Assembly (NCBI GenBank): GCA_902795835.1
Contig: CADBNA010000012.1
Coordinates: 1-16,574, forward strand
Direction: 5' to 3'
Length of the DNA stretch: 16,574 bases
DNA from: an uncultured Lachnospiraceae bacterium
GTDB taxonomy: Bacteria; Bacillota_A; Clostridia; Lachnospirales; Lachnospiraceae
The notes under the pieces: generated by a model
What the model was told of the DNA's origin: nothing
Databases searched by the model: none
Seen by the model: the letters and a program-made list of their open reading frames with translations, nothing else
In this document: positions 341 to 14,265 of the stretch, in pieces
How positions within the stretch are numbered: the stretch's first letter is position 1
Layout of the letters: every line of letters starts with the position of its first letter
Position numbers and translations under genes: made by a program

Positions 341-2245
341 ATGACGGAAAAAGACCGGCAGCAGTTTCCCGGCAACCGGGCCATGATCACATACTTCCTG
401 CGGGGCAGCAGGAGGTATTTTTTGCTGAGCATGTGCATGGCTGTTCTGGCAGCGGCTGCGGATATGGTCAGCCCCAAGATTATCGAATATACAGTGGATT
501 CCGTCATAGGCAGCAAGCCTCTGGCTGCGCCTGCCTGGGTGCGGAACCTGTTCAATGCTGGCGGGGGAACGGCGTATCTGAGGGGACATCTTTTTCTGGC
601 GGCCGCTGTGCTTGCCGTATCCGCCCTGGCGGCGGCCCTTTTCCGGTATCTGTTCCGGCTGATGAATGCAAAAGGAGCGGAACAGCTGGTCCGCCGCATG
701 CGGGACTCTCTGTACAGCCATATCCTGGATCTTCCATATGCCTGGTTCGGGGAGAATCACACCGGCGAGATCATACAGCGCTGCACGTCTGATGTGGAAA
801 CTGTCAAAACGTTTGTGTCCGAGCAGCTGACTTCTCTTTTTCAGGTTACGGTACTGATCGGGCTGTCCATGTATTTTATGGCGGACATCCATATGGGAAT
901 GGCAGCCATTGAAGCCGTTTTTATACCGCTGGTTGTGCTTTCCTCTGTGGTGTTTTACGGAATTGTGGGCAGCTCGTTCGGAAAGGTTGACGAGACGGAG
1001 GCGGAACTGTCCGGCATCGTCCAGGAAAATCTGACCGGAATACGGGTCGTGCGCGCTTTCGGAAGAGAGGCGTATGAGAGAAACCGCTTTCTGGAGAAAA
1101 ATGAGATTTACACTGGTCTGTGGATCCGGCTGATGCGCACGCTGTCTGCTTTCTGGGTGGCCGGAGAAACCCTGTCCCTGTTCCGGAATCTTGCCATGGC
1201 TGTGCTGGGCGCAGTCTTCTGCATCAGGGGCACACTGACGGCCGGTGAGTACCTGGCGTTCATCTCGTATAACGCGCTGATCACGACGCCGGTGCGCAGA
1301 CTGGGACGCATGATCATGGAGATGAGCAAGGCCGGCGTATCCGTCGGGAGGATCCGCGAGATCATGAATGCCCCTGCGGAAGCGGATAAGACCGCTGAGG
1401 CGGTCCTGAATCTGCGCAGCGACAGAGAAGAGCCGGGCTCCGCTGCCGAAGCGTCCGGACGGGAAGCGCGGCCGGAAACGCAGACCCTGACGCGGGGCGA
1501 TATCTGCTTCCGGCATGTCACATACACCTATCCGGGCACCTCGGCTCCCGTTCTGCAGGATATCAGCCTGACGGTTCCCGCGGGCACAACGGTAGGCATA
1601 CTGGGCATGACGGGCTCCGGAAAATCTACGCTTCTCTATCTGCTGGACCGGCTGTATGAGCTGCCGGAAGAAGACGGACGCATTACCATCGGGGGACAGG
1701 ATATCCGCACGATCAGCAGGCATATGCTCCGGCGGAGCATAGGACTGGTTCTGCAGGAACCGTTTCTGTTCTCCGGCACGATCCGGGACAATATTGCCCT
1801 GGGAAAGCCCGGCGCTTCGGAAGAAGAGGTCCGGCAGGCTGCGATTGTGGCCGGGCTGGATGAGACGGTCAGCCATTTTCCGGCCGGCTATCAGACGATT
1901 GTCGGCGAGAGGGGCGTTACGCTCTCCGGAGGGCAGCGCCAGAGGACAGCCATCGCGCAGATGCTGATCCGAGAACCGCCGGTCATGATTTTTGATGATG
2001 CGCTCTCCGCCGTTGACGCCGAGACGGATGCAAAGATCCGCTCCAATCTGCAGAAATACCTGACTGGCAGCAGGAAACCGACGGTATTTCTGGTCTCTCA
2101 CAGGGCAGCAACTCTGCGGAATGCAGACCAGATTCTGGTGATGGACAGGGGCAGGATCGTACAGCGTGGGACACATGAGGAACTGCTGGGCAGGGAAGGC
2201 ATTTACCGCCGGATCTGCCGCCTGCAGATGCAGAGTGAGTATTGA
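341..2245 (+). CDS. ABC transporter half-subunit (permease + ATPase), degenerate Walker B
   Basis: This 634-residue half-transporter of the ABC exporter type (MsbA/BmrC-like) moves a substrate, often lipid, drug or peptide, across the cytoplasmic membrane. The N-terminal ~330 residues are the hydrophobic permease domain, expected to form six helices. After a charged linker (about 345-388) comes the ATPase: Walker A GMTGSGKST (422-430), Q-loop LVLQEP, signature LSGGQ (528-532), Walker B VMIFDD (548-553) and H-loop His587. The residue after the Walker B Asp is Asp553, not the catalytic Glu. In the exporter family this marks the subunit supplying the degenerate site of a heterodimer, so it should pair with the next gene. 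The ATG at 341 follows GAGG at 326-329. Its stop overlaps the upstream edge of the next gene's translation signal. Substrate is unknown. Confidence 0.93.
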   Translation: MTEKDRQQFPGNRAMITYFLRGSRRYFLLSMCMAVLAAAADMVSPKIIEYTVDSVIGSKPLAAPAWVRNLFNAGGGTAYLRGHLFLAAAVLAVSALAAALFRYLFRLMNAKGAEQLVRRMRDSLYSHILDLPYAWFGENHTGEIIQRCTSDVETVKTFVSEQLTSLFQVTVLIGLSMYFMADIHMGMAAIEAVFIPLVVLSSVVFYGIVGSSFGKVDETEAELSGIVQENLTGIRVVRAFGREAYERNRFLEKNEIYTGLWIRLMRTLSAFWVAGETLSLFRNLAMAVLGAVFCIRGTLTAGEYLAFISYNALITTPVRRLGRMIMEMSKAGVSVGRIREIMNAPAEADKTAEAVLNLRSDREEPGSAAEASGREARPETQTLTRGDICFRHVTYTYPGTSAPVLQDISLTVPAGTTVGILGMTGSGKSTLLYLLDRLYELPEEDGRITIGGQDIRTISRHMLRRSIGLVLQEPFLFSGTIRDNIALGKPGASEEEVRQAAIVAGLDETVSHFPAGYQTIVGERGVTLSGGQRQRTAIAQMLIREPPVMIFDDALSAVDAETDAKIRSNLQKYLTGSRKPTVFLVSHRAATLRNADQILVMDRGRIVQRGTHEELLGREGIYRRICRLQMQSEY

Positions 2246-2250
2246 GGAAG
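2244..2250 (+). promoter_or_regulatory. Ribosome binding site fixing the second ABC gene start
   Basis: GAGGAAG ends 6 bases before ATG 2257. It supports that start over the in-frame TTG at 2242, which overlaps the upstream stop codon and has a poorer upstream signal. Confidence 0.65.
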
Positions 2251-2256
2251 TCTGTT

Positions 2257-4062
2257 ATGCCTGAGAAGCCGAGAACAGAAAAGCAGAGACATCTTCCTCT
2301 GTTCGGGCTGCCGAAGATCCTCCCGTTTATCCGTCCGTACCGGCTGACGATCGCGGCCATGATCACAATGGGGGCGGCAAGCAGTCTGGCAGACGCGGTT
2401 TATCCTCTGTTTGACCGGTATGTGCTGGACCATTTTATCGGTGAGAAAACGCTTTCCGGCATGCATATGTTTGCTGCGGGGTATGTGCTGCTTGTCATTG
2501 TACAGCAGGCGGTCAATTACTGGTCCATGCGCATGTGCGGGAGTGTTGAAATGCGCATTGACAGGGACCTCCGCAATGCGGCTTTTTCCCACCTGCAGGA
2601 ACTGTCAGTCTCGTACTACAACCGGAACAGCGTGGGCTACATCCATGCCCGGGTCATGAGCGATACGGGCAAGATCGGGGAACTGGCGGCATGGCGCATG
2701 ATGGATATGATCTGGTATCTCTCTTACCTGATATTTGTATTTGTCATGATGTTCCTGATTCATCCGCCCCTTGCACTGCTCGTCACGCTGCTCGTGCCGG
2801 CTGCGGCCGTGCTGGTCTCTCTGTTTCAGGGCAGGCTCACAGCCCTCAACCGGCAGGTGAGGGAAATCAACGCAAAGATCACCGGCCGATTCAATGAAGG
2901 CGTATCCGGGGCGCGCAGCATTAAAGTGCTGGTGACGGAAGAACGTATGAAGAAGGCTTTTCTGACGGAGACGGCGCGGATGCAGCGGATATCTGTCCGG
3001 GCAGGGCGCTGCTCGGCACTGTTTATTTCTTCTGTGACCCTGCTGTCCTCCCTGGCGCTTGCCATGGTTCTGTGGCAGGGCGGCATGCTGACCAGAGAAC
3101 GGCTGATGGGGATCGGCACGCTGTCTGTGTTTATGTCCTATGCAGTCAGTCTTCTGGAACCTGTGCAGGTAATGATTGAGACGCTTGCCAGCCTGATTGC
3201 GATTCAGGTGAATATCGAACGGTTCTCCCAGCTTCTGGAGGAGAGGACAGAGATCACGGACCGGCCGGATGTCACAGCCGTCTACGGAGACAGTTTTCTG
3301 CCCCGCCGGGAGAACTGGGAACCCCTGGAGGGAGCAGTGGAGTTCCGTGACGTGACATTCCGCTATCCGGACGGCGATGAAAATGTTCTGGAGCATTTTC
3401 AGCTGCGGGTGGAGCCGGGGCAGAGAGTCGCGATCGTCGGTGAGACCGGGGCGGGAAAATCGACGCTGGTTAATCTTGTCTGCCGGTTTTTTGAACCGAC
3501 GGAAGGCAGGCTGCTGATAGACGGCCGCGACGTGAGAGACCGGTCACAGCTCTGGCTTCACAGCCATATCGGGTATGTCCAGCAGAGTCCCTATCTGTTC
3601 TCCGGATCGGTCCGCGATAACATGCGGTATGGCCGGCCGGAAGCTTCGGATGAGGAAATCATGGAAGCGCTTCGTCTGGTTTCGGCGGACCACATTGTAG
3701 AGCGAATGGAAGGGGGACTTGACAGCCCCCTCGGAGAAGGCGGGGACCAGCTCTCAACCGGGGAAAAACAGCTGTTTTCCATGGCGAGGGCGCTTCTGGC
3801 TGATCCGGCTATCCTGATTCTGGATGAGGCGACTTCTTCTATTGATACGGTGACAGAGGAACTGCTGCAGAGAGCAGTGGAAACGGTCGTGAAAGGCCGT
3901 ACATCCTTTGTGATCGCACACCGTCTGTCAACCATTGTGCGCGCTGATGTTATACTTGCCGTGAAGGACGGCGCAATCAGGGAGCAGGGCACACATGAGG
4001 AACTGATGCAGAGAGACGGGTATTACAGCAGACTGTACAGACAGCAGTTTTCAGGAACATAA
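2257..4062 (+). CDS. ABC transporter half-subunit (permease + ATPase), catalytic Walker B partner
   Basis: This second ABC exporter half-subunit, 601 residues from ATG 2257 (an upstream TTG at 2242 is in frame), is the likely dimer partner of the preceding gene. The N-terminal ~320 residues form the permease domain. The ATPase has Walker A GETGAGKST (395-403), Q-loop YVQQSP, signature LSTGEKQ (499-505), Walker B ILILDE (519-524) with the catalytic Glu524, D-loop SSID and H-loop His555. The signature departs from LSGGQ. In the head-to-tail ATPase dimer this altered signature faces the Walker motifs of the first subunit, so both deviations fall in one ATP site while the other stays canonical. 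This matches the asymmetric exporters of the BmrC/BmrD, LmrC/LmrD and TM287/288 type. The 30-base gap to the next gene suggests possible co-transcription downstream. Substrate is unknown. Confidence 0.93.
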   Translation: MPEKPRTEKQRHLPLFGLPKILPFIRPYRLTIAAMITMGAASSLADAVYPLFDRYVLDHFIGEKTLSGMHMFAAGYVLLVIVQQAVNYWSMRMCGSVEMRIDRDLRNAAFSHLQELSVSYYNRNSVGYIHARVMSDTGKIGELAAWRMMDMIWYLSYLIFVFVMMFLIHPPLALLVTLLVPAAAVLVSLFQGRLTALNRQVREINAKITGRFNEGVSGARSIKVLVTEERMKKAFLTETARMQRISVRAGRCSALFISSVTLLSSLALAMVLWQGGMLTRERLMGIGTLSVFMSYAVSLLEPVQVMIETLASLIAIQVNIERFSQLLEERTEITDRPDVTAVYGDSFLPRRENWEPLEGAVEFRDVTFRYPDGDENVLEHFQLRVEPGQRVAIVGETGAGKSTLVNLVCRFFEPTEGRLLIDGRDVRDRSQLWLHSHIGYVQQSPYLFSGSVRDNMRYGRPEASDEEIMEALRLVSADHIVERMEGGLDSPLGEGGDQLSTGEKQLFSMARALLADPAILILDEATSSIDTVTEELLQRAVETVVKGRTSFVIAHRLSTIVRADVILAVKDGAIREQGTHEELMQRDGYYSRLYRQQFSGT

Positions 4063-4092: not shown

Positions 4093-4959
4093 ATGACAAT
4101 GACAGAGCAGTATGAGCAGGACAGGGAACGGCTGATGTCCGAACTGGAAAATGCAGCCGATCCGGTGCGGGCCCAGACCGTGCTGGGCGCAGAGCTTGAC
4201 CGGATTCTGTTCCGGTATAATGAGCAGTGTCCGGATGAACGCGAGCGCCGGGCAGCCTCCTTCATGATCCAGACAGCCCGGATGGCCCTGAGCCTGGCGG
4301 ATACGGCGGGAGAGGTAAAGGTATGGGAACGGCAGAATGAGAGCAGGCAGAAGGGCGGGCCGGGGAGTCTGAAAGGCCTTCCGCTGGTGCTGCTGGCCGC
4401 GGGCATTGTCTGCGCAGGGCTGGTTTTTGCCATGGCGGCAGGACGTGCCTCCGGGGGCGGCCTTTCCTGGATTGTGACGGAAGGGATTCTGCTGGCCGCT
4501 TCTGCCGTCTGCTTCTGGCAGTCCGGCCATCTGCCGGGCAGGTCTGCGGCCCGGAAAGGGACGCAGCGGACAGAGATTTCCGTTGACGCGCACAAACTGT
4601 ACCGCAGCCTGCACAGCGTTCTTCTCACCATAGACAGGAATCTGGATGACATCCGCTCGGCTGCCGGCTGGGAAAAACGGTCACAGGCAAAACAGGATCT
4701 GCTGATCGACGGGAAAACACTGGAACTCTGCGCCGGACTGCTCGAGGCAGGGACATCGGGCGACGGTGCTTTTGCGCTGGAAAAACTGGATGACGTAAAG
4801 TTTTTCCTGCACGAAAAGGGCATTGAAGCAGTGCCGTATTCACAGGAACATGAGGACTGGTTTGACCTGCTGCCCGGTGCAGGGACGGGAACCGTCCGCC
4901 CGGCACTGGCCGCTGAGGGTGTGCTTCTGAAGAAGGGGCTGGCAGTCGGAGGAAGGTGA
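4093..4959 (+). CDS. Two-TM membrane protein with GrpE-like C-terminal region
   Basis: This 288-residue protein has no family I can name outright. The N-terminus (1-90) is charged and helical. Two hydrophobic segments follow (about 95-116 and 126-144), separated by a short glycine-rich turn, so both ends probably face the cytoplasm. The C-terminal part (about 165-285) starts with helix LYRSLHSVLLTIDRNLDDI. It continues with GIEAV (243-247), then an acidic, aromatic stretch and a GTV...GVLLKKG pattern (266-284). The order matches GrpE: a helix of LLpvlDNLe type, then GvE.i, an FDP..H region and a beta-wing G-T/N-V...GY.Lk.R. The next gene, overlapping or 5 bases away, is an Hsp70-like ATPase, the partner expected for a nucleotide exchange factor. 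I infer a membrane-anchored GrpE-like factor; the similarity is remote. ATG 4093 (or 4099) follows GGGGG at 4079-4083. Confidence 0.8.
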   Translation: MTMTEQYEQDRERLMSELENAADPVRAQTVLGAELDRILFRYNEQCPDERERRAASFMIQTARMALSLADTAGEVKVWERQNESRQKGGPGSLKGLPLVLLAAGIVCAGLVFAMAAGRASGGGLSWIVTEGILLAASAVCFWQSGHLPGRSAARKGTQRTEISVDAHKLYRSLHSVLLTIDRNLDDIRSAAGWEKRSQAKQDLLIDGKTLELCAGLLEAGTSGDGAFALEKLDDVKFFLHEKGIEAVPYSQEHEDWFDLLPGAGTGTVRPALAAEGVLLKKGLAVGGR

Positions 4960-4964
4960 GAGGT

Positions 4965-6878
4965 ATGGACAGATTTTTTGGATTTGATCTCGGGGATGCA
5001 GAAAGTGCCGTATCCCGCCTGAACAAAAAAGATCAGAAGGATCCGGAGGTCCTGAAGATCTGCGGAGAAAAAAGTCTGGTCAGCGCCTATGCACTGATGC
5101 AGGACGGGGAACTGGTAATTGGCGAAAAGGCCTGCTATCTGGCCAATGCCGTAAAAAGGAAGCTGCGTTTTAAGAGCGGTTTTCTCACGAAACCGGAAGC
5201 GTCGGCGGATATACGGAGTTTTGCCGCAGGTGTCCTGGGTGAGCTGTATGGCAGCGGAGACCTGGTGAAGAATGAAGACTGCTGTTTCTACATCGGCTGC
5301 CCTGCGGGGTGGGACCGCAATGCCAGAGAACAGTACAGGGAAATATTTGAGAGGGTCGGCTATCCCCCCGCCAGGATTGTCTCCGAATCCCGGGCGGCTC
5401 TGGTCAGCGCATGCCAGTCCCGCCACCTGCAGGTGGGCCAGGACATTCTGTCCAAACCGGTGCTGGTTGTGGATATCGGGTCTTCCACGACCGATTTTGC
5501 CTATATTACAAACGGCCGCGAGGTAGAGATGCAGACAGCCGGTGAGGTGGCCCTGGGGGGCGGCATCATGGACGAAATCCTGCTGGAAGAGGCAGTTGCC
5601 GCATCGCCGGCAGAGACGAAGCTGCGCGCGGTCTTCCGCCAGAGCGAAGCCTGGAAGAATTACTGCGAATTTGCCGCCAGGAGGCTGAAAGAAAAGTATT
5701 TTTCCGATGAAGAATACTGGAAGGAAAATGAGTGCCGGGAATCCGTCCTGATTCAGTACAGGGGAACCCTGCGCCTCATCCTGCGGATTGACCGGGGCAT
5801 TGCGGACCGGCTGCTGAATAAGCCGGCAGAGCGGCTGGGGATGCGCTCTTTTCACGAGACATTTGTAAACAGTCTCAGAGAGGTCCGTGAAAATATCAGC
5901 GGCCAGATGCCGGAACTCCTGTTCCTGACCGGAGGCGTGTCAAAGCTTCCTGCGATCCGCAAATGGTGCCAGGAGGTTTTCGGGGAGGCCGTCGTGATTA
6001 CCGGTGTGGAGCCGGAGTTTTCCGTCTCCCGGGGGCTGGCGGCCTGCGGCAGAATCGATGAGGAACTGCGGGAATTCCGCAAAGACATTGATGAGCTGAC
6101 GGCATCCTCCGTTGTGGAAAACATCGTGAGGGAGCATATCGGGGAGCTGTACAGAGGAATTGTGGAGGCACTGGTCGATCCGATTCTGGAAGAAGTGGCC
6201 ATACCCGTATTCGAGCAGTGGAGAGACGGAGAAATCCTCCGGCTGTCCGATACGGACGAAGTGATGCGCAGCCGTGTGGAGGAGTTTCTGCATTCCGATG
6301 AGGCCAGGGAACTTCTGGCCGATCCGATCGCGCAGTGGATGAAACCCGTGGCCGATGAACTGGAGGAGTACACGGTTCCCATCTGTGTGAAGCATCAGGT
6401 GCCGTATACCGCGCTGAGTCTGAATTCCTATTTCTCCGCTTCCGATATCGACATCCGCATAGACGCGAAAAATGTATTTGCGGTCGGGGAGGTCACCTGG
6501 ATGATCGACTCCATTATTTCGATTCTGGTCGGCCTGATCTGCGGAGGAAGCGGCATTGCCCTGGTATCCGGCGGCGTCAGCGGCATCGTGGCGGGCATCC
6601 TGATCTCGCTCCTGGTGCTGATTCTGGGAAAGGAAAAAATGGAAAACGCCCTCCTGGATGCAGACCTTCCGAAGGTCCTGCGGAAAATGGTTTCCAGGAG
6701 ATCTTTCCGCTCCCGTCTTTCCAGCATCAGCGCGGATGTCAGGGAAGACCTGACCGAGAGCTTTGAAAATGAAAAAAATGAAGAGATCACCAGCCGGCTG
6801 GTCGACGATCTCTCCGAGCAGATCGAACTCTGTCTGACGAAGATGGCAGAAGTGGTGGAAATTCCGCTGGGAAGCTGA
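4965..6878 (+). CDS. Hsp70-like ATPase with atypical helical/hydrophobic C-terminus
   Basis: This 637-residue protein from ATG 4965 (an in-frame GTG at 4956 overlaps the upstream stop) has an N-terminal Hsp70/actin-fold ATPase. Phosphate-1 motif: FGFDLGDAES (5-14). A GEKA...AVKRKLR stretch near 53-68 matches the Hsp70 catalytic lysine region. CPAGWD...RIVSESRAAL corresponds to the VPA.F...EPTAAAL region. Phosphate-2: VDIGSSTTDF (169-178). Adenosine motif: LFLTGGVSKLPAI, with Gly323-Gly324. After residue ~350 the canonical beta-sandwich peptide-binding domain is not recognisable. Instead there is a long acidic helical region, a glycine-rich hydrophobic stretch (about 515-555) able to form a membrane hairpin, and a charged helical tail. 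ATP-driven conformational cycling at the membrane is inferred; the client is unknown. The GrpE-like gene directly upstream supports a chaperone-type role. No J-domain protein is visible in the window. Confidence 0.88.
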   Translation: MDRFFGFDLGDAESAVSRLNKKDQKDPEVLKICGEKSLVSAYALMQDGELVIGEKACYLANAVKRKLRFKSGFLTKPEASADIRSFAAGVLGELYGSGDLVKNEDCCFYIGCPAGWDRNAREQYREIFERVGYPPARIVSESRAALVSACQSRHLQVGQDILSKPVLVVDIGSSTTDFAYITNGREVEMQTAGEVALGGGIMDEILLEEAVAASPAETKLRAVFRQSEAWKNYCEFAARRLKEKYFSDEEYWKENECRESVLIQYRGTLRLILRIDRGIADRLLNKPAERLGMRSFHETFVNSLREVRENISGQMPELLFLTGGVSKLPAIRKWCQEVFGEAVVITGVEPEFSVSRGLAACGRIDEELREFRKDIDELTASSVVENIVREHIGELYRGIVEALVDPILEEVAIPVFEQWRDGEILRLSDTDEVMRSRVEEFLHSDEARELLADPIAQWMKPVADELEEYTVPICVKHQVPYTALSLNSYFSASDIDIRIDAKNVFAVGEVTWMIDSIISILVGLICGGSGIALVSGGVSGIVAGILISLLVLILGKEKMENALLDADLPKVLRKMVSRRSFRSRLSSISADVREDLTESFENEKNEEITSRLVDDLSEQIELCLTKMAEVVEIPLGS

Positions 6879-6905: not shown

Positions 6906-6934
6906 TTGACATCCCATTCTGTTTGAAGAATAAT
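6906..6934 (+). promoter_or_regulatory. Sigma-A promoter of the sugar mutase gene
   Basis: A perfect -35 TTGACA (6906-6911) is followed, after exactly 17 bases, by AATAAT (6929-6934), one mismatch from TATAAT. Transcription would start near 6941, leaving a leader of about 75 bases. A perfect TATAAT also occurs at 6940-6945, but only a poor -35 (TTCTGT) lies 17 bases before it. Confidence 0.75.
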
Positions 6935-8891: not shown

Positions 8892-8935
8892 CGTATGATT
8901 GAAAAAGAAATACTTGAGACTGCGCAACGAAAAAA

Positions 8936-8940
8936 GGAGG
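8936..8940 (+). promoter_or_regulatory. Ribosome binding site fixing the moxR start
   Basis: GGAGG after a run of A lies 9 bases before ATG 8950. This is clearly better than an in-frame TTG at 8899, which has no such site and would sit next to the hairpin arm. Confidence 0.8.
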
Positions 8941-8949
8941 ACCGCTTCC

Positions 8950-9963
8950 ATGGACACGCATGCGAATACCGCCAACCCGTCCGGGATCGAAAAAGAAGAA
9001 TTTGACTACGCCCAGGATGTGATTGCCCGTCTTGCCGCTTACTATGATACCCGCGTGGTCGGACAGCAGGCACTGAAATTTGCGCTGATCGCTTCCGTCA
9101 TTGCTGATGGCCACGTCCTGATAGAATCGGTCCCCGGACTGGCAAAAACGACAGCGGCAAAAGCCATTTCCGATGCGGTAGACGGTCAGTTTTCACGGAT
9201 TCAGTGCACGCCGGATCTTCTGCCAAGTGACATCATAGGCACACAGATTTACAACCAGGCGACGGGAAAGTTTGAGACGACGCTTGGACCGGTGTTTGCA
9301 AACTTTGTGCTGCTGGACGAGATCAACCGGTCAAGCGCGAAAACACAGAGCGCGATGCTGGAGGCCATGCAGGAAAGGCAGGTAACGCTGGGCGGCGTGA
9401 CGTACCGCATGCCCGGGGATGTCTTTATTGTGATCGCGACCCAGAACCCCATCGAACAGGAGGGAACCTATCTGCTGTCAGAGGCGCAGACAGACCGGTT
9501 CATGATCAAGGAGAAAATAACCTATCCGACCGCCCTGGAGGAGACAGAGATTCTGAACCGCATTGAATCCGGCGCGATCAGCAGACGGGAGCCTGCCGTG
9601 CTCAGCATTGAGGATGTGGACAGGGTGCAGGATATAGCCGACAAGATTTATGCGGATGCCGCGATCAAGCAGTATATCGCCGATGTGGTAGACGCTACCA
9701 GGCATGCGGACCAGGTACTGCCGGAAGAACTGTCACAATACGTGCGGATGGGGGCGAGCCCCAGGGCGTCCATCGCTTTTATGAAGATGGCAAAGGCGGC
9801 CGCCCTTCTGAACAGGCGGACCTACGTGATTCCGGAGGATATCCGTCTGATCAGCCATCAGGTCCTCCGTCACCGGATCGGCCTCAGCTTTGCCGCGGCT
9901 GCGGACAACGTGGAGGTGGAAACCATTATTGACAGACTGGTTGCGACGGTAAAGACGCCCTGA
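8950..9963 (+). CDS. moxR: MoxR-family AAA+ ATPase
   Basis: This 337-residue protein from ATG 8950 is a cytoplasmic MoxR-type AAA+ ATPase. The family acts, usually with von Willebrand A proteins encoded alongside, in folding, metal insertion or activation of protein complexes. Visible landmarks: Walker A VPGLAKTT (Gly63 to Thr68), Walker B VLLDEINR (Asp123, Glu124) followed by the typical AKTQSAMLEAMQERQVT stretch, sensor-1 ATQNPIEQEGTY (Asn166) and sensor-2 GASPRAS (Arg272) in the lid domain. All ATPase residues look intact. It heads a run of six genes in MoxR-DUF58-VWA order, so its job is probably remodelling the membrane VWA complex encoded downstream. The target is unknown. The long structured leader upstream suggests its expression is regulated at RNA or operator level. 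Confidence 0.94.
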   Translation: MDTHANTANPSGIEKEEFDYAQDVIARLAAYYDTRVVGQQALKFALIASVIADGHVLIESVPGLAKTTAAKAISDAVDGQFSRIQCTPDLLPSDIIGTQIYNQATGKFETTLGPVFANFVLLDEINRSSAKTQSAMLEAMQERQVTLGGVTYRMPGDVFIVIATQNPIEQEGTYLLSEAQTDRFMIKEKITYPTALEETEILNRIESGAISRREPAVLSIEDVDRVQDIADKIYADAAIKQYIADVVDATRHADQVLPEELSQYVRMGASPRASIAFMKMAKAAALLNRRTYVIPEDIRLISHQVLRHRIGLSFAAAADNVEVETIIDRLVATVKTP

Positions 9964-10014
9964 CAGAGCCCGGGCTTGCATCCGTCAGATGAGAAAACAG
10001 GTGTCGGGTGAATC

Positions 10015-10881
10015 ATGGACTACGAATATCTGACAAAAATCAGGAGCAGGATTGCCCTGTATACAAAAAAGAAGACATCCAATCTTCTGGAAGGCGATTT
10101 CCGGTCCGTATACCGCGGCCGCAGCCTGGATTTTGATGATCTTCGGGAATATACGCCCGGCGATAATGTCCGGGATATCGACTGGAAATCTTCTTCCCGG
10201 ACGGGAAAGATGCTGGTCCGCCGCTATGTCGCGGAGAAAAGGCACAATATTCTGTTTGTGGCAGACGCGGGACGGAAGATGCAGGGAGATACGCCCTGCG
10301 CAGGGCCGAAATCAGAGACGGCGCTTACGGTTCTCGGGGTGCTGGCTTTTCTGGCTGACAGACACAGCGACGATTTCGCACTGCTCCACAGCAGTCCCCG
10401 CGGATTTGAATTCAGCTGGTTCCGCAGCGGGGCCATGCATTTTGAGTCGATTATGCACGCGTATGCCGGAAATGCAGGGCTCGGCGCCCGCCACATGCTT
10501 CCCGAACTTCTGGCTTATGCTGCGGAAAAGATCCGGAGACGCATGGTAATCTGCGTGATCACGGATCTGGACGGCCTGGACGGGATCTCCGAAAAACTGG
10601 TGCGGACACTGACGGTCAACAATGATCTCCTGGTTGTCTGCGTGGAGGATGCGCTTCTCACAGACGCAGGCGGGTTCAACCTGGACAGCGGCGAGTATGA
10701 GGATGCCCTGGTCGCAGGCAGCCGGCGGCTGCGCGAGGCGGAAGTGGCTGCGCGCACGGCGGTGCTGGAACGGGCGGAAGACCTCTTCCGGCGGTACAGG
10801 GTGCCGCTTGCCAGAGTGGCAGGTGAAGAGGAAGTGGTTGACCGGGTGACAGAACTTCTGGACAGAACAAGGGAGACGTAA
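10015..10881 (+). CDS. DUF58 protein with degenerate MIDAS
   Basis: This 288-residue protein carries the DUF58 hallmark LDFDDLREYTPGDNVRDIDW (38-57), followed by the RTGKMLVRRYVAEK segment. DUF58 proteins are regular partners of MoxR ATPases and contain a VWA-like fold. Where a metal-binding DxSxS motif would sit, this copy reads ADAGRKM (Asp84, then Gly and Lys), so metal binding there is doubtful. No membrane segment is apparent, making it a likely cytoplasmic adaptor between the ATPase and the membrane VWA proteins (inference). It lies 51 bases after moxR and 3 bases before the next gene. Its ribosome site is weak (AGGTG at 9999-10003), which could mean lower or coupled translation. Confidence 0.9.
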   Translation: MDYEYLTKIRSRIALYTKKKTSNLLEGDFRSVYRGRSLDFDDLREYTPGDNVRDIDWKSSSRTGKMLVRRYVAEKRHNILFVADAGRKMQGDTPCAGPKSETALTVLGVLAFLADRHSDDFALLHSSPRGFEFSWFRSGAMHFESIMHAYAGNAGLGARHMLPELLAYAAEKIRRRMVICVITDLDGLDGISEKLVRTLTVNNDLLVVCVEDALLTDAGGFNLDSGEYEDALVAGSRRLREAEVAARTAVLERAEDLFRRYRVPLARVAGEEEVVDRVTELLDRTRET

Positions 10882-10884
10882 GAG

Positions 10885-11406
10885 ATGGAATTTCCGTTTA
10901 CTGTTGAATTGCAGCCTCCTTTTTCCTTCTGGACGGGATGGTTTGTGTGCGGTCTTGTACTGCTTGCCGCTGCCGCTGTCCTGTGCTCTGTTTTCCGGTG
11001 GACTCTCAGGAACCGGCTGCGCGATCCGTCTTCTCCGCAGATCCGCCGTCCGGCTGATGCGGATATGATAAGGATCCGGCAGCGCGCCCTGACGGAACTG
11101 ACAGATCTGGAAAAAGAATACCGGGACGGCCGGATTTCCGTGCGGGAGACCAGTCAGAGACTGAGCGGACTGGTCCGGGGCTTTGTCGGAGATGTGACCG
11201 GCATTCCCGTGCAGGAGTATACCCTGAGTGATATCCGCCGGCTCCGCATGCCGGTGCTCACCGCTCTGGTGCAGGAATACTATGTCCCGGAATTTGCCGA
11301 CTATGACGAGACTTCCGGCCGGAATGCCGGCAGATGCGGCATAACCCGGGAAGCCGTACTGCAGTCCCTGTTTCGCACAAGAAAGGCGATAGAGAGATGG
11401 CGCTGA
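10885..11406 (+). CDS. Small one-TM protein of the MoxR/VWA operon, unknown function
   Basis: This 173-residue protein has a short N-terminus, one hydrophobic helix (about 16-37) followed by arginines, and a cytoplasmic domain. That domain reads as helices, including LTDLEKEYRDGRISVRETSQ, then a conserved-looking LSDIRRLRMP and YYVPEFADY segment. The layout (one TM, helical cytoplasmic domain, position between DUF58 and the first VWA gene) resembles the DUF4381-type proteins of Bat operons, but I cannot confirm family membership by eye. It starts 3 bases after the DUF58 stop and overlaps the start of the next gene by 10 bases, so translation is probably coupled. I infer a structural membrane partner of the VWA proteins. 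No catalytic motif is seen. Confidence 0.85.
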   Translation: MEFPFTVELQPPFSFWTGWFVCGLVLLAAAAVLCSVFRWTLRNRLRDPSSPQIRRPADADMIRIRQRALTELTDLEKEYRDGRISVRETSQRLSGLVRGFVGDVTGIPVQEYTLSDIRRLRMPVLTALVQEYYVPEFADYDETSGRNAGRCGITREAVLQSLFRTRKAIERWR

Positions 11407-12491
11407 AATATCCGCTGGTACTTGCGGCAGGCCTGCCCCTTCTGGCGGCCCTGCTGGTACTGTTTCACCTGTTCAGGAAAAAGACCGGATACCGGGGCGG
11501 TCCCCGCGTGGCAAATACAAGGTTTGTTACGGAACTGCCGGAATACAGAAAACTGCAGACCATACGAATGGCGGGCCAGATCCTGCTGGAAGCCTCTCTG
11601 ATTCTGTGCCTGGTCAGCACGCTTGTACTGGCTGCCAGACCATACCGCACCATGACTGTCACCAGCGGCACAAAGAAGCGAGACATTTTCCTCTGCATGG
11701 ATGTTTCCTACTCCATCTACAATCTGAATTATGACCTGGTGGAGAGCCTGGAGGATGTTGTGAGACATCTGGAGGGAGACCGTTTCGGCATATCGATATT
11801 CAATACTTCCACGGTCCTGTATGTGCCGATGACGGATGACTATGATTTTGTCCTGGAAAAGCTGGAGGAACTGAAGGAATACTTCCGCCTCCAGAAGGCA
11901 TATATGGATAAATTCGGCGATTATACTTATATCCCGGATGATGAATGGGACGAATACATGGATCTGTGGGAGCAGCTGGAATACTTTGATGCCGGTACGC
12001 TGATCAACAATCAGGTCAAGGGAAGCTCCCTGATCGGAGAAGGACTGGCTTCGTGCCTGTACAGCTTTCCGAGATTTGAAAAGGAGGCCCGCACCCGGGT
12101 TGTGATCCTGTCTACGGACAATGCGCAGGAGGCCAGGTCAAAGCCCCTGCTGGATCTCAGAGAAGCGGCCGGCCTCTGTGAAAAAAACGATGTTACTGTT
12201 TTCGGGATATTTCCGAACAGGGATTCTTTCAGCAGTTCCGCCACCACAGATTACGAGACAGATCTTCGTGAACTGGAGGAAGCCGTCAGGACAACCGGCG
12301 GGGTCTGCTACAGAGAGAGCGAGAATCTGACAGTGGAAGATATTGTCGCCAGCATACAGAAGGAGGAGGCGATGATCGTTCAGGAAATCACGATTGTCCG
12401 TGAAGTGGACCAGCCCGGAAAAGCTGCCGCGGCGCTGCTTGCGGCTCTTGCGGGCATGATGGCGGCAGGCTTTGTCCTGCGCAGAATCTGA
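11397..12491 (+). CDS. Membrane-anchored von Willebrand A protein (BatA-like)
   Basis: This 364-residue protein from ATG 11397 has an in-frame upstream ATG at 11334, which lies deep inside the previous gene. Two hydrophobic helices (about 6-26 and 60-82) precede a VWA domain, and a third helix (about 342-360) is near the C-terminus: the BatA/BatB layout. The metal-site motif is intact: DVSYS (Asp102, Ser104, Ser106) and a later TDN (Asp241). Between the first VWA half and the SSLIGEGL segment lies an acidic, aromatic stretch (about 162-201, including YIPDDEWDEYMDLWEQLEYF), longer than usual for the family and probably an insertion. The domain should face the outside of the membrane and bind ligands through the metal site. 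The role is inferred from the operon. Confidence 0.9.
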   Translation: MALKYPLVLAAGLPLLAALLVLFHLFRKKTGYRGGPRVANTRFVTELPEYRKLQTIRMAGQILLEASLILCLVSTLVLAARPYRTMTVTSGTKKRDIFLCMDVSYSIYNLNYDLVESLEDVVRHLEGDRFGISIFNTSTVLYVPMTDDYDFVLEKLEELKEYFRLQKAYMDKFGDYTYIPDDEWDEYMDLWEQLEYFDAGTLINNQVKGSSLIGEGLASCLYSFPRFEKEARTRVVILSTDNAQEARSKPLLDLREAAGLCEKNDVTVFGIFPNRDSFSSSATTDYETDLRELEEAVRTTGGVCYRESENLTVEDIVASIQKEEAMIVQEITIVREVDQPGKAAAALLAALAGMMAAGFVLRRI

Positions 12492-12502
12492 AGGGGACAG
12501 CT

Positions 12503-13462
12503 ATGGTTATGCAACCGGTTATACCTGTACAGATTGTCCTGCCGGTGATGCTGGCGGTTTACGGCGTCATTGTGTTCCATCTGATCCGGAGAAAGGGAAC
12601 AGCCAGGGATAAGATCCTGACACTGATCCGTCTGCTCTGTATCGGCGCGCTTGTATTCGTAATCAATCTGCGCATTATGAAAGAAAGATCGGACATGGAT
12701 GTCGAGATGAAGAATATCGATGTCCTGTTTGTCGCGGATACGACGATCAGCATGTGGGCAGAGGATTATAACGGGACCCATCCCCGTATGGACGGCGTGC
12801 AGACGGACCTGCGCTATATTATGGATGAGCTGTACGGCGGCAGCTTCGGACTGATCCGCTTTGACAACCGTTCCCAGATCCTCGCACCTTTTACCCAGGA
12901 TGCGGATACGGTGGCGGACGCCCTTGAGACCATCAGCGCCCCGGACCGCTACTACGCAAAAGGCAGCTCTCTGAATACGGCATACGACGATATGGAAAAG
13001 CTTCTGCAGTCCTCCCGCAAAAAGGAAGGGAGGCAGACCTATCTGTTTTTTGTCAGTGACGGGGAAATCACGGATGATTCTGATCTGCGGTCCTTCCGGG
13101 AGCTGGCGCCCATGGTGGACGGCGGTGCGGTGCTCGGCTACGGAACGGAAAAGGGAGGCCGCATGTCGGACGGGAAATATCATTCCTATGTGTCGGATCC
13201 CGAGACCTGGCAGGATGCCGTATCCCGCATAGATGAGGATAACCTTCGCAGTATCGCCGCAGACCTTGGCGTAGAGTATATTCATATGAATACAAAACAG
13301 AATGTCAGCGCCGTATGCGCCGGCATCAGGGCGGCCAGCTCCCGCACATCCGGCAGGAAGGACGCGGTCGTATATGATGACACCTATTATCTGTACACCA
13401 TACCCCTGCTGGCCCTTCTGCTGTGGGAGGCATGGGAAATCATCAGAAGAAAAAAGATGTGA
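12503..13462 (+). CDS. Membrane-anchored von Willebrand A protein (BatB-like)
   Basis: This 319-residue second VWA protein has two N-terminal hydrophobic helices (about 7-28 and 38-58), a VWA domain, and a C-terminal helix (about 296-312) ending in a basic RRKKM tail. The metal motif is DTTIS (Asp79, Thr81, Ser83), so Thr replaces the first Ser of DxSxS; both can ligate through a hydroxyl. A SDGE segment supplies Asp186. It starts 11 bases after the BatA-like gene, with AAGGGG just upstream of ATG 12503. Tandem VWA proteins of this type are the membrane part of MoxR systems and probably interact with each other. It is clearly diverged from its neighbour, so this is not a recent duplication. 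Confidence 0.9.
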   Translation: MVMQPVIPVQIVLPVMLAVYGVIVFHLIRRKGTARDKILTLIRLLCIGALVFVINLRIMKERSDMDVEMKNIDVLFVADTTISMWAEDYNGTHPRMDGVQTDLRYIMDELYGGSFGLIRFDNRSQILAPFTQDADTVADALETISAPDRYYAKGSSLNTAYDDMEKLLQSSRKKEGRQTYLFFVSDGEITDDSDLRSFRELAPMVDGGAVLGYGTEKGGRMSDGKYHSYVSDPETWQDAVSRIDEDNLRSIAADLGVEYIHMNTKQNVSAVCAGIRAASSRTSGRKDAVVYDDTYYLYTIPLLALLLWEAWEIIRRKKM

Positions 13463-13473
13463 GTGAACGCGGA

Positions 13474-14265
13474 ATGGCAGAGAACAGATCTGAAAAAAAG
13501 ACAGAGACCATAAGTGAGAACAGCAGGCGGTCCGCAAAACGCATTATGCTGGCAGTTACGGTCTGCGCCGTTCTTCTCGGCGCGGCAGGGCTTCTGCTCT
13601 GCGGCAGGCAGCTTCTGAATGAAGCTTTTCTGCGGGACTGGAACAGCGGCCGGTATACGGATACATGGGAGCGCCCGCTTCTGCCGGTCAACCTTCCGGA
13701 GGGCTGGCTTCCTCTCTATCACATGGGAAATGTCAGCTATATGCAGGAGGATTACGATGCCGCAGTCAGCTGGTACCAGCAGTCACTCGGGAAAAACCCT
13801 CCCGCGGAAGAAAAGGAATGTGCCGTGCGGATCAACCTGGCGCTGGCTCTCCTGCATAAGATTGACTATGCGCATCTGGATTCGGAAAATGCCGTCCGCA
13901 CTGCGGTCTCGCAGCTGAAGACGGCCCGCGGCGTCCTTACGGAGCACGGCTGCGCAGATCCGGAAGGAACAGACGGGCACAGCAGGGAGGCCGAACAGCT
14001 GAAGAAGGAGATCGATGAACTGCTCCGGAAGCTGCAGGATGAGAGCGGCCAGCAGTCCGATGAGGAGCAGAACGAACAGGAACAGCAGGACGAACCGAAA
14101 GACCAGAAGGATGACCGTCAGGAGTCTGTCAGAGAAAAACAGATCCGCAGGGAGCTGGAGGAACAGAGAAAGCAGTCCGCGCAGGAACGCGCCGATATGC
14201 AGCAGGAGAAAAACAGGGCAGAGGACGGCAGCGGCTTTGGCGAGTTTGAAGGAAAGACCTGGTGA
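13474..14265 (+). CDS. One-TM protein with TPR and charged coiled-coil tail (BatC-like)
   Basis: This 263-residue protein from ATG 13474 has alternative in-frame starts at GTG 13423, ATG 13432 and GTG 13459, and the choice is not certain. One hydrophobic helix (24-44) follows a charged N-terminus. A TPR-like unit (about 80-113) contains the typical YHMGNVSYMQEDYDAAVSWY pattern, followed by another helical pair. From about 170 the chain becomes very rich in Glu, Gln, Lys and Asp, forming a probable coiled coil or disordered arm, and ends with aromatic GFGEFEGKTW. TPR proteins after tandem VWA genes are typical of Bat operons, where they are thought to scaffold the complex. It overlaps or nearly abuts the upstream gene and closes the operon; a new promoter follows. 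Confidence 0.88.
   Translation: MAENRSEKKTETISENSRRSAKRIMLAVTVCAVLLGAAGLLLCGRQLLNEAFLRDWNSGRYTDTWERPLLPVNLPEGWLPLYHMGNVSYMQEDYDAAVSWYQQSLGKNPPAEEKECAVRINLALALLHKIDYAHLDSENAVRTAVSQLKTARGVLTEHGCADPEGTDGHSREAEQLKKEIDELLRKLQDESGQQSDEEQNEQEQQDEPKDQKDDRQESVREKQIRRELEEQRKQSAQERADMQQEKNRAEDGSGFGEFEGKTW

Follow-up and report, generated by a model that had tools for sequence, protein, structure and literature searches.

A predicted membrane-anchored GrpE-like protein paired with an Hsp70-like ATPase in uncultured Lachnospiraceae

Results

In a 16,574-nucleotide stretch of DNA from an uncultured Lachnospiraceae bacterium (contig CADBNA010000012.1; hereafter the window), the open reading frame (ORF) at 4093-4959 of the forward strand encodes a 288-residue protein whose C-terminal part is predicted to fold like GrpE, and the gene stands directly before that of an Hsp70-like ATPase. 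On the strength of the predicted fold and of the gene pairing, the protein probably acts as a nucleotide exchange factor of the GrpE type, anchored in the membrane and dedicated to the adjoining ATPase. The chain runs from an N-terminal helical domain through a membrane hairpin to the GrpE-like domain, which ends in a beta-wing (Table 1). A first-pass annotation, made from the letters alone, had pointed to a series of motifs, and these lie in the protein as it claimed (LLTIDRNLDDI at residues 177-187, GIEAV at 243-247, FD at 257-258 and GTVRPALAAEGVLLKKGLA at 266-284). Its two transmembrane (TM) helices are likewise seen, as hydrophobic segments at residues 89-120 and 122-142 by hydropathy and as two helices in the AlphaFold2 model; with the same simple cut-off, two such segments are found in 28 of 31 sequences of the protein's family (the partner family) and one in the other three. 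Where the long N-terminal stalk of GrpE was looked for, AlphaFold2 places only a 34-residue helix (166-199), after the TM hairpin.

Folded alone, residues 157-288 are predicted to form the head of GrpE, that is, a helix pair followed by a beta-wing, and in a PDB-wide fold search with this model GrpE chains occupy ranks 1-11. The structural prediction thus supports the GrpE-like interpretation put forward in the annotation. In a second fold comparison Z was moderate, the majority of GrpE rows differing by no more than 1 from the best unrelated row, and Thermus thermophilus GrpE stood clear of the remaining rows. When the whole protein was submitted to Foldseek, membrane helices and helical bundles dominated the result, with no GrpE among the best 50 of 230 matches.

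The protein falls below every Pfam and NCBIfam cut-off, its sole Pfam row being a holin model (E 0.023) over the TM part. The GrpE family PF01025 gives no match for it at E 1, none is listed for 21 members of the partner family at E 1, and none was found at the family loci in whole-genome scans of three genomes at E 10; among PDB sequences, no credible match was found either for the window protein (by phmmer) or for the profile of its family. In a profile-profile comparison by hhalign, the family matches a set of GrpEs from related bacteria (27 usable proteins from 28 GrpE loci) with a probability of 0.5% over 12 columns, while, as a positive control, the same 27-GrpE profile finds the E. coli, Thermus, mycobacterial-type and human GrpEs at 98-99%. 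Because the program detects GrpEs as diverse as these, the family, if related to GrpE at all, would appear to lie far outside GrpE's usual spread. Set against GrpE wings, a profile of the wing alone reaches a score of 19.6, which none of 150 column shuffles equals (mean 9.9, standard deviation 2.0). We give this match little weight: it covers just 12 columns at a probability of 10%, it places TVRPALAA on RVLRPAMVK, a register that the fold match does not share, and 117 of 150 shuffles score equally well or better when the alignment is made in global mode. Given the outcome of the profile-profile comparison, common descent from GrpE is not shown by sequence. Of the proposal that a GrpE-like protein is hidden in an otherwise unrecognised gene, the predicted fold bears out one half, and the expected profile-profile match to GrpE failed to appear.

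The gene directly downstream, which had been called Hsp70-like, matches PF00012 with 34.6 bits (cut-off 20.6), as do all 13 Hsp70-like family members examined with this profile. It begins 5 bases past the stop of the GrpE-like gene, most likely at the ATG at 4965 rather than at the GTG at 4956, because the family shares the ATG start. A profile of the 13 members aligns with DnaK across residues 1-366, the entire nucleotide-binding domain, and a five-sequence alignment that includes two DnaKs shows no change at D8, K70, E141, D170, T175, D177, G323 and G324, which we take to belong to the ATPase motifs. The PF00012 match of the window's Hsp70-like protein (P0002) stops at profile position 374 of 599. 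Beyond it, a 13-member profile of residues 375-637 has no PDB sequence match at E 10, and no Pfam match of P0002 at E 0.1 falls in this domain. Because the C-terminal 260 residues match nothing in PDB or Pfam and hold a hydrophobic hairpin, the neighbour is, judged from its sequence, an Hsp70-type engine without the peptide clamp (peptide-binding domain and lid). The chain closes with a near-invariant AEVVEIPLG. A dynamin-like C-terminus was considered and is not claimed: the PADLOC model of LeoB, described as half of a split bacterial dynamin (PMC4159319), matches P0002 at residues 447-628 (E 6.6e-4), but just 2 of 13 members at E 0.1, with no Pfam dynamin among the families listed and no PDB sequence match. 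In one genome (G056) the Hsp70-like gene is split over two frames (L055, L057), through a frameshift or an assembly error.

The two genes keep company throughout the loci read. A scan of 397 genomes from the family of G001 (the genome of locus L001) gave 11 credible members of the partner family, G001 counted, and 7 more, besides G001, came from 344 genomes scanned across the order; three matches had been dropped as chance before counting, one in the first scan (G142; E 4e-4, residues 77-178 in a 903-residue frame) and two in the second (G1063 and G1041; internal stops). The window, L001-L003 and the loci of ten other genomes from the 397-genome scan, 14 of 14, have the two genes on the same strand, from a 4-base overlap to 124 bases apart. 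The order scan adds 7 loci, each with the Hsp70-like gene next in line (spacing read in 5), so that the pairing holds at 21 of 21 loci once the three chance matches are excluded. One of these three, L097 in G1063, was rescored at 23 bits and has no Hsp70-like neighbour in the available DNA; it would be an exception if it were a broken true member. In the two scans of the 397 genomes, the credible matches of both queries fall in the same 11 genomes, each scan having one extra weak or distant match in a different genome (G142 for the partner, G256 for the Hsp70-like protein). Adjacency and co-occurrence both fit the annotation's phrase "dedicated to one Hsp70 paralogue". Canonical GrpE, together with DnaK in pieces, is found elsewhere in G001 and G003, and G002 showed only part of a DnaK, where a contig ends; the pair is no replacement for the housekeeping GrpE/DnaK set.

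Two protein searches gave 19 family proteins including that of the window, and the 18 homologues align along the window protein. Together with 17 positions that are identical in at least 29 of 31 aligned sequences (15 of them from residue 165 onward; P261, T267, R269, P270, A271 and G282 are included), this shows that the ORF is no product of chance. Fourteen of the 18 homologues are on contigs shorter than 6 kb, among which neighbours were read for the L001 protein (P0003) alone; three family loci come from named genomes, one of an uncultured Eubacterium and two of uncultured Lachnospiraceae. Between the window and L001, synonymous divergence (dS) is alike for the partner and the Hsp70-like gene (0.83 and 0.87), and nonsynonymous divergence (dN) is 0.19 and 0.03, respectively. 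Within the partner, dN is 0.06 for residues 241-288, 0.09 for 1-80, 0.16 for 157-240 and 0.48 for 81-156, and column entropy over the 31 sequences agrees, with a conservation peak in the wing and a far less conserved linker and TM part. A wing that is conserved while the membrane part drifts fits one that touches a conserved partner.

Table 1. Positions of the two genes and their predicted domains in the window
Feature	Position	Strand	Basis
Putative membrane-anchored GrpE-like protein, 288 residues	4093..4959	+	ORF, homologues, AlphaFold2, fold search
Predicted N-terminal helical domain, residues 1-80; main helices 24-45 and 49-71	4093..4332	+	AlphaFold2
Predicted membrane hairpin, helices 96-116 and 124-149	4378..4539	+	AlphaFold2, hydropathy
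Predicted GrpE-like domain, residues 157-288: helix 166-199, helices 207-222 and 225-241, then beta-wing	4561..4956	+	AlphaFold2, fold search
Predicted beta-wing, residues 242-288, most conserved part	4816..4956	+	domain fold, dN, column conservation
Hsp70-like ATPase, 637 residues, next gene	4965..6878	+	PF00012, family alignments
Hsp70-type nucleotide-binding domain, residues 1-370	4965..6074	+	PF00012, DnaK alignments
C-terminal domain, residues 375-637, in place of the peptide-binding domain; hydrophobic hairpin about 504-559	6087..6875	+	profiles, hydropathy

More distant versions of the pair may exist. In G594, the contig end truncates an Hsp70-like protein that has no PF00012 match of its own and is 25% identical over residues 8-555; it is preceded by a 307-residue protein with two hydrophobic segments that ends in SVYPAVVKDDSIIVKGRV. 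The latter matched itself alone in a protein search; over 145 columns that reach the C-terminus, the family profile aligns with it in collinear order at a probability of 0.7%, with a raw score (19.3) that is second best of 12 targets, nine unrelated ORFs scoring at most 15.7. This lends weak support to G594 having the same arrangement. In G256, which has no partner match in the 397-genome scan, a distant Hsp70-like gene (PF00012 12.6 bits, below the cut-off) lies at L059:3055-8979 in a row that encodes a one-TM protein, a second small protein, the Hsp70-like protein itself, without a hydrophobic segment, and an AAA ATPase. One small G256 protein shares a short stretch with the partner family (raw score 29.3, 25 columns, 12%), and the row may be related to the pair and have more components. 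The Hsp70-like search also matched G681, G474 and G656 at 24-29% identity; the G681 and G474 matches belong to ordinary grpE-dnaK-dnaJ operons.

As for the surroundings, L001 is syntenic with the window, L002 and L003 have one common neighbourhood, and the neighbourhoods of G378 and G377, read by eye, differ. Two ORFs for ABC exporter half-transporters (341-4062, overlapping by 4 bases) end 30 bases 5' of the GrpE-like gene. L001 likewise has the second of them upstream, so that the exporter ORFs and the pair may share a transcript in the window/L001 lineage. A sigma-70-like site (11 of 12 positions) at 6906-6934, between the Hsp70-like and phosphoglucomutase genes, is a possible start of the next transcript; such sites occur in the stretch at near chance number. 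Farther downstream (8899-14265), a MoxR-type AAA protein, a DUF58 protein, a vWA protein and a protein with sub-threshold TPR matches stand in a row, also in L001, that resembles an ordinary MoxR-vWA operon. A mobile-element origin was rejected (65 pattern stretches in viral contigs, none confirmed), as was a plasmid origin (no plasmid match).

Discussion

How might such a pair work? Both proteins would sit in the cytoplasmic membrane through their hydrophobic hairpins, with their working domains presumably in the cytosol. GrpE is described as putting one beta-domain into the DnaK cleft and opening it through a rotation of subdomain IIB (PMC4753570); the C-terminal beta-wing of the window protein would, in the same manner, wedge into its neighbour's nucleotide cleft, open subdomain IIB and free ADP. 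The N-terminal helices and helix 166-199 would stand in for the long dimeric stalk of GrpE, the membrane keeping the partners together, and, as the neighbour seems to have no peptide-binding domain, the ATPase cycle would power the conserved membrane domain at the neighbour's own C-terminus instead of a peptide clamp. Exchange activity is a step that we infer from fold and pairing. In its fullest form, this is a repurposed Hsp70-GrpE membrane machine, in which an anchored factor of GrpE fold, unrecognisable by sequence, times a clampless ATPase whose turnover acts on the membrane or membrane proteins instead of unfolded clients, as a second kind of exchange factor beside ordinary GrpE; we hold this wider picture to be possible, at somewhat less than even chances.

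Other explanations are less probable, to differing degrees. The partner could use its GrpE fold as a scaffold, holding the ATPase nucleotide-free or fixed at the membrane as an assembly factor or inhibitor, with no catalysed turnover, which we consider unlikely, since the invariance of the eight presumed ATPase motif residues with the two DnaKs fits an active cycle. The fold and the pairing serve this explanation equally well, and fast client-folding cycling is not obviously required of an ATPase that appears to have no peptide-binding domain. HscA and HscC, both specialised bacterial Hsp70s, are described as GrpE-independent (PMC8215388), which makes holding or assembly the leading rival.

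Less probable still is a likeness to GrpE that is convergent or a modelling artefact, the partner then consisting of a helical hairpin and a small beta-sheet and binding its neighbour in some other way. The missing sequence link at any profile level, the shallow alignment and the moderate Z of the second fold comparison, with most GrpE rows close to the best unrelated row, would all agree with this. Against it, eleven GrpE chains, and no others, head an unbiased search, the gene adjoins an Hsp70-type ATPase, the expected partner of a GrpE, and the domain had been predicted in the first-pass annotation prior to any fold computation. That the partner has an unrelated fold and does no more than tether the Hsp70-like protein to the membrane, as the TM hairpin in its family might suggest, is very improbable, given that P0002 carries a hydrophobic hairpin of its own and that the partner's linker and TM part are far less conserved than its wing.

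The probable exchange factor may be set beside several known systems. With GrpE and GrpEL1 (PF01025; exchange factors of DnaK and mitochondrial Hsp70), it has in common the predicted head of two helices and a beta-wing and a gene paired with an Hsp70-type ATPase; unlike them, it has no detectable sequence relation to the family and, in the AlphaFold2 model, no long free stalk helix, carries a membrane hairpin and an N-terminal helical domain, and has a partner other than DnaK. The GAP1-N2 conflict systems, found mainly in actinobacteria and firmicutes, are described as combining Hsp70 and GrpE genes in a special neighbourhood, some of the Hsp70 domains being without a peptide-binding domain (Kaur et al., 2020, PMC7159879). 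Those neighbourhoods carry GAP1-N2 GTPases and FNIII proteins, and their GrpE is named as such, whereas the window protein is not recognisable by profile; Pfam named no GAP1-N2 GTPase or FNIII protein among 12 window proteins (6 at E ≤ 1, 6 at E ≤ 1e-5), the neighbours in the relatives being read by eye. HscC, also a specialised bacterial Hsp70, is believed to work at the membrane together with dedicated tail-anchored co-chaperones, DjlB and DjlC, but there the anchor is on J-domain proteins, GrpE is thought to be unused and HscC retains its peptide-binding domain (PMC8215388). Yeast Snl1 is a membrane-anchored Hsp70 co-chaperone of the exchange-factor class, but has a BAG domain and resides in the eukaryotic endoplasmic reticulum membrane (PMC3962485). 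Among the matches listed in literature searches on membrane or divergent GrpE, we recognised no bacterial membrane-anchored GrpE, a statement that extends to those matches only.

A 2015 review states that eubacterial genomes encode one Hsp70 exchange factor only, GrpE (PMC4753570). Against this one-factor view, a second GrpE-like protein, anchored in the membrane, seems to be encoded in some uncultured Lachnospiraceae-type bacteria beside a clampless, membrane-bound Hsp70-like engine; the additional protein of GrpE-like predicted fold stands next to its own Hsp70-type ATPase, and two host genomes also have ordinary GrpE and DnaK. If the assignment is correct, the GrpE wedge would be older or more re-usable than sequence searches reveal, unnamed membrane proteins encoded next to unusual Hsp70 genes could turn out to act as exchange factors, and the role of an Hsp70 ATPase that lacks the peptide clamp could be tested cleanly with just these two proteins.
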